Program-made: the position numbers and the translations under genes
Notes under the pieces: generated by a model
What the model was told of the DNA's origin: nothing
What the model saw: only the letters and a program-made list of their open reading frames with translations
Database searches by the model: none
Part shown: positions 4,900 through 11,776 of the stretch, one piece after another
Layout: each line of letters opens with the position of its first letter
Numbering within the stretch: position 1 is the first letter of the stretch
From: Candidatus Cloacimonadota bacterium
Lineage (GTDB): Bacteria; Cloacimonadota; Cloacimonadia; Cloacimonadales; TCS61
NCBI GenBank assembly: GCA_021157525.1
Contig: JAGGWK010000037.1
Location: 1 to 34,866, forward strand
Direction of reading: 5' to 3'
DNA length: 34,866 bases

Positions 4900-5181
4900 T
4901 CAGATGCTGAAACGTACACTCAAGCCGATGAGCCAGATGTGTTCACTGAAATCGATATACCGCTGGCCATCAACGTCTTTCCGGGCATACAAATACTTGT
5001 AGAGCCCATAAAATCCCACCTTCCAGAAGAGCCGATAATCCAAGCCGCATTCCACATCAAATACGGGGCCGAATTCCACGGTTTTATTCTGTGCTGCGTC
5101 CTGGTGAGAATCTCCCCAGAGAGATATACCACAAAACAGCACGGCACCCAATATGATCATGGATATTCTTTGTATGCTCAT
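4900..5181 (-). CDS. Small exported beta-barrel-like protein
   Basis: This 93-residue protein starts at ATG 5181, with AAGGAG six bases upstream. The ATG at 5187 would leave no spacing from that site. It has a signal peptide (MSIQRISMIILGAVLFCGISLWG). The remainder alternates hydrophobic and polar residues (EFGPVFDVECGLDYRLFW, GFYGLYKYLYARK) and ends GLSVRFSI, similar to the aromatic-rich last strand of outer-membrane barrels. It is too short for a normal eight-strand barrel, so it may be a truncated or small strand-rich outer-membrane or periplasmic protein. No family was recognised. It lies between the TPR protein and the aspartic-protease-like lipoprotein and is probably co-transcribed with both. 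Confidence 0.6.
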   Translation of the reverse strand: MSIQRISMIILGAVLFCGISLWGDSHQDAAQNKTVEFGPVFDVECGLDYRLFWKVGFYGLYKYLYARKDVDGQRYIDFSEHIWLIGLSVRFSI

Positions 5182-6510: not shown

Positions 6511-7149
6511 CTATTTTGGTCGATTTATCGTGGCATTGATGCGGTTGATCAGCTTTTCTTTCAAATCGTCGCCATCTTTCCAGAGAATAAAATTCTGATG
6601 ATTTACGTCGAAATGAATCTCTGATTTCATCACTTTCTTTTCAATAACTTCCTTTTCTCCATCTTTTACTTTAATTTCTTGTAATATATAAGTATTAAAC
6701 CAGTCTTCCCTGCACGTATAAATTACCGGAATATTGAGACCTCGTGCATATCCGGCTTCGTAATAGACGCCAGATCGATTGAAGCCTGTTGAACGACCAG
6801 GAATGGGACTTTTCTTAGCAATCCAAAGTAATAAGTTATTTGCTTTTTCAGTGAATGTTGGTGATTGCAATGAATTGAGATGTTTCAGCTCATCAATTGA
6901 GAAAGTTGTAATTCCTGTTCTTACTTTATTGTGTATCCAAGAAGAAGCAATGGCTGCTGTTTCCATGTTGAAATTAAAGGTGAAAGATGAAGGATTTTTA
7001 ATCCCTAATATGAAGTCAACTATATTATCTTTTATTACATAATTACCGCATCGAATACATTCAATTTTCCAACTCGTAACATTGTCTCCATGAGTGTCCC
7101 CTATTTTCGCTGGCGATCCACACACGGGGCATTTTCCCCAATTTGTCAT
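6511..7149 (-). CDS. Zinc-ribbon / TIR-like (nucleoside deoxyribosyltransferase-like) protein, apparently internally deleted
   Basis: GGAGG five bases before ATG 7149 supports the start. The N-terminus is a zinc ribbon (Cys7, Cys10, Cys31, Cys34), followed by a helical region to about residue 115. Residues 127-146 (GVYYEAGYARGLNIPVIYTC) and 179-190 (HFDVNHQNFILW) are the C-terminal blocks of TIR-like or deoxyribosyltransferase-like domains found in predicted defence proteins with the same N-terminus. In the full-length relatives I recall, roughly 90-130 residues lie between the helical region and the VYYEAG block and hold the start of the Rossmann-like domain. Here SPIPGRSTGFNRSGVYYEAG runs straight through, so that core seems missing in frame. 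The gene is AT-rich beside its neighbours. Probably an inactive or altered accessory or defence gene; an unrecognised shorter subfamily is possible. Confidence 0.65.
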   Translation of the reverse strand: MTNWGKCPVCGSPAKIGDTHGDNVTSWKIECIRCGNYVIKDNIVDFILGIKNPSSFTFNFNMETAAIASSWIHNKVRTGITTFSIDELKHLNSLQSPTFTEKANNLLLWIAKKSPIPGRSTGFNRSGVYYEAGYARGLNIPVIYTCREDWFNTYILQEIKVKDGEKEVIEKKVMKSEIHFDVNHQNFILWKDGDDLKEKLINRINATINRPK

Positions 7150-7496: not shown

Positions 7497-8144
7497 CTAT
7501 AGATTTTTTACTGCCATCACAGCGATGCCTACCAATTGGGCTTTTTCCAGCAGCTCTTCCTCCAGAATAAGGGGTGAGTAATCTTTGTTGTAGGGAGACA
7601 GCAAAATCTTGCCTCCTTCGGAAAAAAGACTCACTTTTTTCAAGGTGACTTCATTGTCCACTCGCACCACACATACACGTTCATCAGCTTCTTCCCACTC
7701 CTCATACTGTTTCACAATCACCACATCCCCGTGGGAAATGTAGGGATCCATGCTGTCGCCGTTGGCATAAAAGGCAAAATAGCGGGAAAAATCACCACTG
7801 AGTGAAAGGGTATCAATGAGCACCTGATCTTCGATTTCCGCTTCGGCAATCTCTTCGGGAGAGCCGCAACTCACCTGTGCCACGATAGGCACATTGTAGT
7901 AGGTGTGGGCACCGATTTCACGGATGGCTTCGGATGAAAACATGATGCCGTTGCCGGTGATAAGCCAATTGATGTTGATGTTGTAGACAGAAGCCAGGCG
8001 ATTGAGAAAATTAAAATCAGGCATCGTCTTATCTTTGATATAGCGATTGATCACCACATTCGACATCCCCAGCCGTTTTGCCAGACCGGTTTGAGTGAGA
8101 TCAAGCTTGCGCAACACAGCGCTAAGTCTTTCTCCTAACGTCAT
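7497..8144 (-). CDS. LexA/CI-type transcriptional repressor with S24 self-cleavage domain
   Basis: This 215-residue protein has an XRE-type helix-turn-helix (about residues 5-62; LTQTGLAKRLGMSNVVINRYI) and a C-terminal peptidase S24 domain. The catalytic serine is Ser131 in GDSMDPYISHGDVVIV and the lysine is Lys169 in EVTLKK. The spacing of 38 fits the LexA/UmuD family. The likely scissile bond is Cys93-Gly94 in VSCGSPEE, where LexA has Ala-Gly. RecA filaments are known to trigger self-cleavage in this family. GGAGG precedes ATG 8144. The gene is divergent from the umuD operon, and two matching palindromes lie between them, so it almost certainly represses both itself and the mutagenesis operon. 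It resembles a phage CI repressor more than housekeeping LexA. Confidence 0.9.
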   Translation of the reverse strand: MTLGERLSAVLRKLDLTQTGLAKRLGMSNVVINRYIKDKTMPDFNFLNRLASVYNININWLITGNGIMFSSEAIREIGAHTYYNVPIVAQVSCGSPEEIAEAEIEDQVLIDTLSLSGDFSRYFAFYANGDSMDPYISHGDVVIVKQYEEWEEADERVCVVRVDNEVTLKKVSLFSEGGKILLSPYNKDYSPLILEEELLEKAQLVGIAVMAVKNL

Positions 8145-8171
8145 ATTCCCTCCTTGCAGTCATATCTGCGA

Positions 8172-8187
8172 TTAACTATGGAGTTAA
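8172..8187. promoter_or_regulatory. Putative repressor operator O1 (TTAACT-N4-AGTTAA)
   Basis: TTAACTATGGAGTTAA is a perfect 6-bp dyad with a 4-base centre, located 28 bases upstream of the repressor start. The identical arms recur at 8204-8219. Its position suggests autoregulation of the repressor. The operator role is inferred from repetition, symmetry and location between divergent repressor and SOS-type genes. Confidence 0.75.
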
Positions 8188-8195
8188 AATATAAA

Positions 8196-8222
8196 TTGAC
8201 GGATTAACTGTCTAGTTAAATC
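8196..8222 (+). promoter_or_regulatory. Possible umuD-operon promoter overlapping O2
   Basis: TTGACG (8196-8201) is a good -35 element. TAAATC (8217-8222), 15 bases later, is a weak -10 candidate at the right-hand edge of operator O2, so repressor binding would cover the spacer. On the opposite strand TAGACA followed 15-17 bases later by TATATT or TATTTT, overlapping O1, could serve the repressor gene. Element positions are read by eye only. Confidence 0.4.
8204..8219. promoter_or_regulatory. Putative repressor operator O2 (TTAACT-N4-AGTTAA)
   Basis: TTAACTGTCTAGTTAA has the same two arms as O1 with a different 4-base centre. The centres of O1 and O2 are 32 bp apart, close to three helical turns, which would place two repressor dimers on the same face of the DNA. 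It ends 39 bases before the umuD start. Confidence 0.75.
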
Positions 8223-8258
8223 TTTGGTTCTGAGAAAACAAGGGGATGAGGTAACGAT

Positions 8259-8720
8259 ATGCAGAGTAAAGGAGTTCCGATTGTTCCGGGAGAAGCGGTG
8301 AGCGCGGTGTATACTGCGGCCGTGGATTCTGTCCTGTTGCGCCCGCTGGTGGGAAGTTGCATCCAGGCAGGTTTTCCCTCCCCGGCACAGGATTATATCG
8401 AGCACTCCCTGGACCTCAATGAACATCTGATCAGTCACCCGGTGGCCACCTTTTTTGTGCGGGTGCAAGGCCTTTCCATGGTTAATGCGGGAATTTTCCC
8501 TGATGATATTCTCATTGTCGATCGCTCTCTGGAACCGCGGCACAACTCCATCATTATTGCGGCGGTGGATGGAGAGCTCACGGTAAAGCGTCTTTCCATC
8601 CAAGCCGGATGCTGGCAGCTGTTGCCGGAGAACCCTGAATTTTCCGCCTTTGATATCACCGAGGATACCGATTTTTCGGTGTGGGGCGTGGTGACCTACG
8701 CTATTCATCGGGCGGTGTGA
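8259..8720 (+). CDS. umuD: UmuD-like translesion polymerase V accessory protein
   Basis: This 153-residue S24-family protein has the UmuD cleavage region QAGFPSPAQDYIE (cleavage expected between Ala37 and Gly38), the catalytic Ser73 in GLSMVNAGIFPDDILIVD, and Lys110 in ELTVKRL. The Ser-Lys distance of 37 equals that of E. coli UmuD (Ser60, Lys97). RecA-stimulated self-cleavage gives UmuD', which joins UmuC to form Pol V. The start at 8259 has a GAGGT seven bases upstream. The umuC gene follows after 7 bases. The N-terminal arm before the cleavage site is somewhat longer than in E. coli. Confidence 0.93.
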   Translation: MQSKGVPIVPGEAVSAVYTAAVDSVLLRPLVGSCIQAGFPSPAQDYIEHSLDLNEHLISHPVATFFVRVQGLSMVNAGIFPDDILIVDRSLEPRHNSIIIAAVDGELTVKRLSIQAGCWQLLPENPEFSAFDITEDTDFSVWGVVTYAIHRAV

Positions 8721-8727
8721 GGCGACA

Positions 8728-10011
8728 ATGAAGCGCAACGATCTGGTGGCATTGGTGGATTGCAACAATTTTTATGTCTCCTGCGAGCGGGCGTTTGATC
8801 CCCGTCTGGCGGGCAAGGCTATCGGGATTTTATCAAACAATGACGGCATTATCGTGGCCCTTTCTAACGAATTGAAGGCCTTGGGAGTGAAACGTGGAGC
8901 GGCAGCATTTAAGCTGCCTCCCTGGTTTATAAAAAAGCATGACATCCGGCTTTTTTCCTCCAATTACACCCTCTATGGCGATATGTCTGTCCGGGTGATG
9001 CAGGTGCTTTCCACCTTTACTCCTGAGCTGGAAGTCTATTCCATCGACGAAGCTTTTTTGTCTCTGAAAGGTTTTGAAAACCGCGATCTTACAGCCTATT
9101 GTCACGAGATTCGGCAGACAGTACAGCAATGGTTGGGCTTGCCGGTATCGGTGGGTATTGCTCGCACCAAAACCCTGGCCAAGGTAGCCAATCGAGTGGC
9201 AAAGAAATTTCCCGGCGTTGGGGGCGTGTACAATATGGTGGATCATCCTCGGATGGATAAAGTGCTTTCCTGGGTAGCTGTGGAAGATGTGTGGGGCGTG
9301 GGCCCGCAATATGCCCGGATGTTGCGCAAAGAAGGGATAGAAAATGCCTGGCAGCTATCTCAGGCTGCGCCAAACTGGATACAGCAAAAGATGACTATCG
9401 TGGGTTTGCGCACCGTGCGGGAATTATGCGGCATATCCTGCATCGATATGGAGCTGGACATTGATCCCAAAAAAGAGATTATCTCGTCAAAATCCTTTGG
9501 TATGCCGGTGGATGATTTGCACCTTTTGCAGGAAGCTGCCGCCGCCTATTGCAGTCGTGCGGTGGAAAAGCTGCGGGCTGAACACCAGGTGGCATCGATG
9601 GTGATGGTGTATCTCACCACAAACCGCTTTAAAGAAGAGCCGCAATATGCCAATTACCAGCAGGCGCGGCTGCCGGTGCCATCGGCCTACACACCAGATT
9701 TTCTGGTGCTGGTGCACGCCCTGCTTGAGGACATGTACAAGCGTGGTTTCAACTACAAAAAGGTGGGGGTGATGCTCAGTGAAATCACCCATCAAAGCAA
9801 GGCACCGCTGGATTTTTTTGCACCCACTTACCTGGATGATGAACGAAAGACCATCATGGATTGTGTGGATGGCATAAACCGCCGCTGGGGCAGCCACACC
9901 ATGGATTACGCTGCAATCGGCACACTGCAACCCTGGCAGATGAAACGAGAATTTCTCTCGCCTCACTACACCACTCGCTGGGGAGAATTGCCGGTGGTGA
10001 GGGCCTTATGA
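8728..10011 (+). CDS. umuC: DNA polymerase V catalytic subunit UmuC (Y family)
   Basis: This 427-residue Y-family polymerase carries the palm motifs VDCNNFYVSCE (catalytic Asp, aromatic steric-gate residue) near residue 11 and YSIDEAFL (Asp-Glu) near residue 108. The helix-hairpin-helix block VEDVWGVGPQYARML is near 190, and the little-finger domain follows. SKAPLDFFAP near residue 365 resembles the beta-clamp-binding pentapeptide region of UmuC. Length matches E. coli UmuC (422). A GAGG overlaps the end of umuD, and the stop codon overlaps the dinB start (ATGA), so the three are translationally coupled. It performs error-prone synthesis past DNA lesions with UmuD'. Confidence 0.95.
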   Translation: MKRNDLVALVDCNNFYVSCERAFDPRLAGKAIGILSNNDGIIVALSNELKALGVKRGAAAFKLPPWFIKKHDIRLFSSNYTLYGDMSVRVMQVLSTFTPELEVYSIDEAFLSLKGFENRDLTAYCHEIRQTVQQWLGLPVSVGIARTKTLAKVANRVAKKFPGVGGVYNMVDHPRMDKVLSWVAVEDVWGVGPQYARMLRKEGIENAWQLSQAAPNWIQQKMTIVGLRTVRELCGISCIDMELDIDPKKEIISSKSFGMPVDDLHLLQEAAAAYCSRAVEKLRAEHQVASMVMVYLTTNRFKEEPQYANYQQARLPVPSAYTPDFLVLVHALLEDMYKRGFNYKKVGVMLSEITHQSKAPLDFFAPTYLDDERKTIMDCVDGINRRWGSHTMDYAAIGTLQPWQMKREFLSPHYTTRWGELPVVRAL

Positions 10012-11117
10012 GCTGCCGGAAAATCATTCACGTAGATATGGATGCCTTCTTTGCAGCGGTGGAGATGCGTGACCATCCGGAATATCGGGGAAAGCCGCTG
10101 ATCGTGGGGGGCAAGCCAGACAGCCGCGGAGTGGTTTCCACCTGCAATTACGAAGCACGAAAATATGGGATTCACTCGGCAATGCCCAGCTCTCAGGCTT
10201 ATCGGCTCTGTCCACAGGCGCTTTTTGTGCGGGGAAATTTCGATGCCTACCGGGAAGTCTCCCAACAGGTGCGGGAGATTTTCTATCAGTACACCGATCT
10301 GGTGGAGCCGGTTTCCATCGATGAGGCCTATCTGGATGTCACCGAAAATATCCCCGGCATTGCTTCAGCCACAGAGATAGCCCGACAGATTCGGGCACGC
10401 ATCCGTGAAAAAACAAAACTTACCGCTTCTGCCGGAGTTTCCTACTGCAAATTTCTTGCAAAAGTGGCCTCGGATTTTAATAAACCCGACGGCATCTGCG
10501 TGATCACTCCCAGTCAGGCAGAGGATTTTCTGGCCAAATTGCCGGTGGGGAAATTTCACGGTATCGGCAAAGTGAGTGAGCGGAAATTGCGGAATCTGGG
10601 CATCAAAACCGGTGCCGACCTGAAACGCTGGGAACTCAAGGATTTGCTGAAGCACTTTGGCAAAGCGGGATGCTACTATTACAACATTGTTCGGGGCATA
10701 GATGACCGCCCGGTGCGTACCAGCTGGACCCGTAAATCCATCGGCATGGAGCGCACCTATGCCACCGATGTGGCCGATATGGAGGAGATGAAGCAATCTC
10801 TGGAAAAGATCGGGAAAAAATTGAGCGACAGCATGGCAAAGAAAGGGATCCGGGCGCGCACCATCACCCTCAAAATAAAGTACGATAATTTCCAGCTCAA
10901 TACCCGGGCACTCAGTTTTCCGGAGCCTACCCGGGATGCAAAAATCATCAGCCACAGTGCGGCAAAATTGCTGGAAAAACATTTGGGTACCGATCGCAGC
11001 GTGCGGCTGCTGGGCATCAGTATGAGCCATCTACACCGGGAAGAGGTGAGTTGTGATATCCAGATGATCTTTGATTTTTTCAAAAAAGTGCCATGGAAAT
11101 TGGATGAAGGGAGGTAA
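10008..11117 (+). CDS. dinB: DNA polymerase IV (DinB, Y family)
   Basis: The start is ATG 10008, overlapping the umuC stop by 4 bases and giving MSCRKIIHVDMDAFFAAVE, the standard Pol IV N-terminus with catalytic Asp10 and steric-gate Phe15. The frame is open further upstream, but that part reads inside umuC. PVSIDEAYLDVT (second acidic pair), VSYCKFLAKVASDFNKPDG and KFHGIGKVSERKL (helix-hairpin-helix) follow in order. The little finger ends with IQMIFDFF, which may bind the beta clamp. The length of 369 residues is normal. Two Y-family polymerase genes in direct tandem is unusual and indicates a dedicated damage-tolerance operon. The stop codon overlaps the possible upstream ATG of the SRAP gene. 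Confidence 0.95.
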   Translation: MSCRKIIHVDMDAFFAAVEMRDHPEYRGKPLIVGGKPDSRGVVSTCNYEARKYGIHSAMPSSQAYRLCPQALFVRGNFDAYREVSQQVREIFYQYTDLVEPVSIDEAYLDVTENIPGIASATEIARQIRARIREKTKLTASAGVSYCKFLAKVASDFNKPDGICVITPSQAEDFLAKLPVGKFHGIGKVSERKLRNLGIKTGADLKRWELKDLLKHFGKAGCYYYNIVRGIDDRPVRTSWTRKSIGMERTYATDVADMEEMKQSLEKIGKKLSDSMAKKGIRARTITLKIKYDNFQLNTRALSFPEPTRDAKIISHSAAKLLEKHLGTDRSVRLLGISMSHLHREEVSCDIQMIFDFFKKVPWKLDEGR

Positions 11118-11119
11118 TG

Positions 11120-11776
11120 ATGTGCGGACGTTTTGCCCTGTATAGCAGTGTAAATGCGATAATGGCCTATGCCGACCGGTTGGCTGCAGACGATGCGCCA
11201 TCCTATAATATCACACCTGGATCGTCGATTCTCACAATCAGTCGAGACGGTGATTCCCGAATTTTGAAGCGAAGAATATGGGGACTTGTACCCTTTTGGG
11301 CAAAAGATAAAAAGATAGGAACTCGGTTGATTAATGCGCGAAGCGAATCACTGACCGACAAACCAAGCTTCAAATACGCCTTCCAGAAGCGCCGTTGCCT
11401 GGTTATTGCCGATGGCTTTTTTGAGTGGCGCAAAAGGGATAAACAGCCCTTTTACATCGTCGGCGAGGGACTGCTTTTTTTTGCCGGATTGTGGGAACGT
11501 TGGACGCAGCCCGATGGAACACCTCTGGAAACCACCGCCATTATCACCACCCCAGCCAATGCAACCATGGAGCCGCTACATCACAGGATGCCGGTGATCC
11601 TGGATGCAGAGCAAGCTCAGTTATGGCTGCATCCCTCGCCCAGCTGGATAGCCCTGCACAGTCTGCTGGAATCCACCGCAATGTCACTGTCCATGCATCC
11701 GGTATCGAAGGAGATAAACTCCCCGGCAAACAACCATCCTGGGCTGCTGGAAGAAGTGAATATGGGGCTTTTTTAA
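11120..11776 (+). CDS. SRAP-domain abasic-site protein (YedK/HMCES family)
   Basis: Two ATGs are adjacent (11117, 11120). I chose 11120 because GGGAGG is better spaced and the family requires cysteine at position 2, exposed after removal of methionine. The protein (218 residues) has Cys2 in MCGRF, Asn72 in INARSE, Glu102 in DGFFEW and His155 in HHRMP, matching the YedK active residues Cys2, Asn75, Glu105 and His160. Family knowledge: Cys2 forms a thiazolidine crosslink with abasic sites in single-stranded DNA, shielding them from cleavage and error-prone bypass. It is the last gene of the umuD-umuC-dinB operon, with one to two bases separating it from dinB, so it should be made in step with the two polymerases. 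Confidence 0.93.
   Translation: MCGRFALYSSVNAIMAYADRLAADDAPSYNITPGSSILTISRDGDSRILKRRIWGLVPFWAKDKKIGTRLINARSESLTDKPSFKYAFQKRRCLVIADGFFEWRKRDKQPFYIVGEGLLFFAGLWERWTQPDGTPLETTAIITTPANATMEPLHHRMPVILDAEQAQLWLHPSPSWIALHSLLESTAMSLSMHPVSKEINSPANNHPGLLEEVNMGLF

Follow-up and report, generated by a model that had tools for sequence, protein, structure and literature searches.

Does a self-cleaving-type repressor encoded back to back with translesion polymerase genes serve as the private switch of a possibly mobile cassette, or does it run the SOS response of the whole cell? The question is raised by a locus in a 34,866-nucleotide contig of a Candidatus Cloacimonadota bacterium (JAGGWK010000037.1; the whole analyzed stretch is hereafter the window), for which the original prediction proposed a dedicated LexA/CI-like repressor, separate from a housekeeping LexA. 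Our analysis points instead to a locus that is very probably the SOS core of a Cloacimonadota family without canonical LexA, in which the repressor would govern itself, the umuD-umuC-dinB-SRAP operon, and recA.

The five-gene DNA-damage cassette is real, and all of the predicted genes are present where they had been placed. The repressor gene (7497–8144, minus strand) encodes a 215-residue CI-type protein with an N-terminal HTH_3 domain (43 bits) and a Peptidase_S24 domain (66.6 bits). Four genes diverge from it on the plus strand. The first is umuD (8259–8720), coding for the Pol V subunit, with an S24 match of 101.8 bits, an Ala37-Gly38 bond, and the residues Ser73 and Lys110. It is followed after 7 nt by umuC (8728–10011), the catalytic subunit of Pol V, which contains IMS, IMS_C, and DUF4113 domains; a Pol V of the UmuD2C type is defined by a UmuC with DUF4113 next to a UmuD that has both the cleavage bond and the Ser-Lys dyad, as here. 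The umuC gene overlaps dinB (10008–11117), which scores above the NCBIfam cut-off for Pol IV, in an ATGA at 10008–10011. The dinB stop codon TAA (11115–11117) shares a base with a first SRAP ATG at 11117; the SRAP gene most likely starts at the second ATG (11120–11776, beginning MCGRF) because no other start leaves a cysteine at position 2. Its product, an abasic-site protein of the YedK/HMCES family (224.9 bits), carries the complete active-site set of that family: Cys2, Asn72, Glu102, and His154. Thus, domain matches and gene junctions agree with a divergent repressor and a tightly coupled operon, and the proposal of a single regulated operon with a self-cleaving-type repressor is supported. 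The catalytic residues proposed for UmuD (Ser73/Lys110) and three of those proposed for SRAP (Cys2, Asn72, Glu102) stand, whereas the histidine, given as His155, is His154 when the SRAP motif HHRMP is aligned to IHDRRP of YedK. A genome search found two Y-family polymerases, both within this operon.

The company of SRAP genes is itself familiar, since Aravind et al. (2013, PMC3765255) had described them beside umuC-umuD or dinB, in some cases together with lexA. The present locus differs from those operons in uniting both polymerase sets and SRAP in one operon, with a CI-type repressor and a double operator.

The repressor is not a canonical LexA. It has HTH_3 in place of the LexA_DNA_bind winged helix (PF01726) that accompanies S24 in LexA, and the lexA model TIGR00498 scores 56.7 bits, below its cut-off of 110.95, over residues 84–213 only. 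Its architecture is that of the non-canonical LexA proteins, with a PF01381 HTH_3 N-domain and an S24 C-domain, and it has the Ala/Cys-Gly bond and Ser-Lys dyad of a cleavable protein: cleavage is predicted at Cys93-Gly94, with Ser131/Lys169 as the catalytic dyad. All four of these residues are invariant in 24 orthologues, as are most residues of the recognition helix (S28, V30, V31, N33, R34, Y35). A structure model (pLDDT 88) backs the domain assignment and says nothing on DNA specificity; the S24 domain models on LexA/UmuD, and the ImmR HTH domain matches the N-terminal domain alone. Downstream of the repressor gene, on the same strand, the window encodes a 212-residue protein (6511–7149, minus strand) without a Pfam, NCBIfam, or PADLOC match.

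The 114-bp gap between the repressor gene and umuD contains two perfect 16-bp dyads, TTAACT-N4-AGTTAA, 32 bp apart; two matches occurred in none of 100 shuffled versions of this promoter. Putative operator A (TTAACTATGGAGTTAA, 8172–8187) lies proximal to the repressor gene, and putative operator B (TTAACTGTCTAGTTAA, 8204–8219) follows 32 bp from A. The sole sigma-70-like promoter found in the gap, a consensus match only, reads toward the repressor (TAGACA-17-TATTTT, 8186–8214, minus strand) and overlaps both dyads: operator A overlaps the end of the predicted −10 element, and operator B contains the predicted −35 element (TAGACA). Paired dyads spaced by 30–33 bp, mostly 32 bp, recur in 22 of 26 promoters of repressor orthologues.

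The distribution of the dyad in the host genome links this promoter to recA. Across the assembly, which spans 2.23 Mb and is 98.5% complete, there are three exact copies, where about 0.09 would be expected by chance, and allowing one mismatch adds none. Two copies are those of the shared divergent promoter. The third (5107–5122 of locus L004) falls within the 3′-terminal part of thpR, ~110 bp ahead of recA, of which the genome has one copy, so that the exact-dyad regulon of this genome comprises the divergent promoter and recA only. A looser pattern, TTAWCYNNNNRGWTAA, yields five more weak sites. The genome also has just two S24 genes, the repressor and umuD: a search of the 98.5%-complete assembly found neither a LexA nor a further S24 gene, and its one PF01726 match falls at the C terminus of an unrelated 485-residue protein without S24. 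The proposed search for a second lexA in the same genome thus came back empty, and there is no housekeeping LexA from which the repressor could be separate, unless the small missing part of the assembly contains a lexA gene. The same holds more widely, as canonical LexA is missing at its cut-off from 124 of 125 Cloacimonadota genomes. The lone canonical LexA, at locus L199 (G047:C7:9730-10326), comes from a genome 88% complete with 5% contamination and may be real or sit on a stray contig.

These data bear on the idea that the repressor is a private local switch, ruling its own gene and the adjacent operon while another regulator runs the general SOS response. That two of the three exact dyads in the host genome fall in the shared promoter fits such a switch, as does the lack of an exact recA dyad in six repressor-bearing relatives (G001, G003, G004, G017, G018, G019). 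We nevertheless regard it as improbable, given the absence of any LexA or other S24 repressor gene from the host genome and the persistence of the recA dyad: an exact copy stands at the matching place inside thpR in 19 of the 30 family genomes checked, single and nearly always reading TTAACTACAGAGTTAA. Third codon positions of thpR are 98% identical within the dyad, compared with 65% upstream and 42% downstream, a comparison that is partly circular because the rows were selected for the 12 outer dyad bases; the central ACAG, outside that selection, is also nearly constant. Bare counts of TTAACYNNNNRGTTAA across the family do not exceed a reversed control in many genomes and are therefore uninformative, so that only placement and pairing of the sites tell. 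Since the same dyad precedes recA and no other LexA or S24 repressor gene was found, the protein appears to be the master regulator of the SOS response, and the only one in the host's family, rather than a private extra switch.

Orthologues of the repressor (55–65% identity) occur in 27 of the 41 genomes of the host's family. They are confined to this one family and spread across many of its genera, and all 26 named orthologue loci in a scan of GTDB contigs are from Cloacimonadota. Three genera besides that of the host have the complete order repressor|umuD-umuC-dinB-SRAP (L041, L044, L046), and a further three follow it as far as the contig reaches (L042, L043, L057), so the arrangement is not peculiar to this genome. 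In other genera, umuD-umuC-dinB-SRAP is unlinked to the repressor gene (e.g., G006, G020, G023, G030, G033), and the dyads are nonetheless present before it, usually paired. Altogether, 17 of 22 umuD promoters of repressor-bearing genomes contain an exact dyad, usually as a pair 32 bp apart. The sites on unlinked umuDC operons are the strongest sequence evidence that the repressor would act in trans, and they also weigh against a switch of purely local reach. The RecA tree is poorly resolved and dates neither the separation of repressor and umuDC nor the ancestral state of their linkage.

Binding of the repressor to these dyads is something we infer from sequence, which leaves room for a different, unlinked transcription factor as their owner, with the S24 repressor incidental. 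We consider this very improbable, since the strongest paired sites overlap the predicted elements of the promoter that drives the repressor gene, and genera without the repressor (g8, g10, g15) also have no dyad at umuD or recA. At the genus level, repressor and dyads are associated (Fisher test, p = 0.007 for umuD and 0.029 for recA, with a grouping chosen after seeing the data). Co-occurrence per genome is not significant (p = 0.07 and 0.08), partly because the metagenome-assembled genomes are fragmentary; four of them (G013, G016, G105, G106) keep dyads without a detected repressor. Genus g5 is a true exception, with the repressor and no dyad at either recA or umuD. Outside the family, genome G046 from another family of the order has a distant HTH-S24 protein directly followed by umuC (L038), and several HTH-S24 proteins of other Cloacimonadota families may be their SOS repressors.

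The suggestion that the cassette is mobile did not hold up. A recently acquired phage or mobile module, in which the repressor would be a prophage CI and the operon its cargo, could account for the HTH_3-S24 architecture and for the best PHROG match of the repressor, a phage transcriptional repressor family (125 bits). It might also account for a low-GC (33–36%) gene pair at 269–1991 of the window, about 5.5 kb from the repressor locus, which encodes a three-Cys-motif partner TcmP and a radical SAM protein and looks like an inserted island; the radical SAM protein weakly matches the candidate defence system PDC-M41. Yet a repressor profile found no relatives in viral contigs, tblastn against phages and plasmids yielded nothing closer than CI-type proteins of at most about 32% identity (best phage match 30%), and no integrase or phage gene occurs among the scanned neighbours. 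Moreover, repressor divergence tracks RecA divergence over 22 genomes (Mantel rho 0.76, against a highest value of 0.49 among 2000 permutations), and the orthologues span many genera of a single family. We therefore reject a mobile cassette, and recent acquisition from a phage appears extremely unlikely; the phage-like architecture makes an old phage origin of the repressor possible.

With the repressor as SOS master regulator, the following mechanism is proposed. The CI-type repressor would bind the two TTAACT-N4-AGTTAA dyads, whose 32-bp spacing corresponds to about three helical turns, so that two dimers would probably sit on one face of the DNA, possibly in a cooperative manner. The bound protein would silence both the gene that encodes it and the divergent umuD-umuC-dinB-SRAP operon, and it would also occupy the single dyad in front of recA. 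Upon DNA damage, RecA filaments would stimulate self-cleavage at Cys93-Gly94 by Ser131/Lys169, and cleavage would release recA, Pol V, Pol IV, SRAP, and more repressor.

In some relatives, the putative regulon is larger. A dyad precedes rarA/mgsA in four loci (L154 at 916, L165 at 1903, L167 at 1625, L175 at 1803), and single or double dyads precede a gene that diverges from a murI-like gene and encodes an mrfA-like DEAD+MZB helicase with an HNH-like segment (L146 at 3250/3282, L147 at 2686/2718, L171 at 2465; double in two of these loci). The dyad TTAACTCTATAGTTAA, or a variant of it, stands before an ECF-like sigma gene (L149 at 2233, L153 at 2276, L157 at 2550, L176 at 2218), whose ~320-residue product has weak similarity to ECF sigma factors. 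rarA and the mrfA-like helicase are DNA-repair genes, as expected of an SOS regulon. None of the three is covered in the host genome, which has no further exact dyad.

How does this repressor compare with known regulators? Like canonical LexA, it has an S24 domain, a Ser-Lys dyad, and a core regulon, here predicted, of recA, umuDC, dinB, and itself; the LexA winged helix is missing. A close parallel is the non-canonical LexA described in Bacteroidetes by Sanchez-Osuna et al. (2021, PMC8565304), who found the family only in that phylum. These proteins likewise join a phage-CI-like HTH_3 N-domain to an S24 C-domain, occur in a lineage without canonical LexA, target their own gene as well as umuDC and dinB (here predicted), and can be divergent from a polymerase gene. 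They differ in phylum, in the Cys-Gly cleavage bond predicted here, and in their operators: the Cloacimonadota dyad, TTAACT-N4-AGTTAA and usually doubled at 32 bp, conforms to neither CTAA-N5-TTAG nor GGA-N5-TCC. In silico, we find what is expected of a non-canonical LexA, namely a repressor encoded on the chromosome, with candidate sites ahead of its own gene, recA, and translesion polymerase genes, and the protein would count as LexA under the functional definition of PMC8565304 if shown to control these genes. The repressor is thus best read as a non-canonical LexA that is analogous to the Bacteroidetes proteins and has a small SOS regulon.

Two further systems offer partial likenesses. FddR of Francisella (PMC13148647) is an autoregulated CI-type S24 repressor of a divergent unit and serves the damage response of a lineage in which no LexA-run SOS response operates, as predicted here for autoregulation and damage response; FddR binds GTG-N11-CAC and recA is not induced in its response, whereas the dyad described here lies on both recA and umuD-umuC-dinB-SRAP. 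UmuDAb of Acinetobacter, also an S24 protein, controls the polymerases in place of a missing LexA, as we predict for the Cloacimonadota repressor, which, unlike UmuDAb, is a protein separate from an HTH-free UmuD. A literature search found no earlier description of the TTAACT-N4-AGTTAA operator or of an SOS regulon in Cloacimonadota.

The family would be informative on the rebuilding of SOS networks once LexA has been lost, as it contains genera with repressor and umuDC linked or unlinked, with or without predicted recA control, and with larger putative regulons. Tentatively, Cloacimonadota may have rebuilt their SOS response independently of Bacteroidetes, by capturing a phage-type repressor that at first ran a self-contained divergent unit; its operator would then have spread to recA, inside thpR, and in some genera to rarA, the mrfA-like helicase, and the sigma factor, while umuDC moved away. 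If so, living genera would show intermediate steps of the SOS-network reconstruction proposed for Francisella. If the assignment of the repressor is correct, Cloacimonadota would join the lineages whose SOS response is run by a phage-type repressor, here through an operator of its own and with a regulon small enough for outright testing, and the assignment would predict when these largely uncultured bacteria produce two mutagenic polymerases together with an abasic-site shield.
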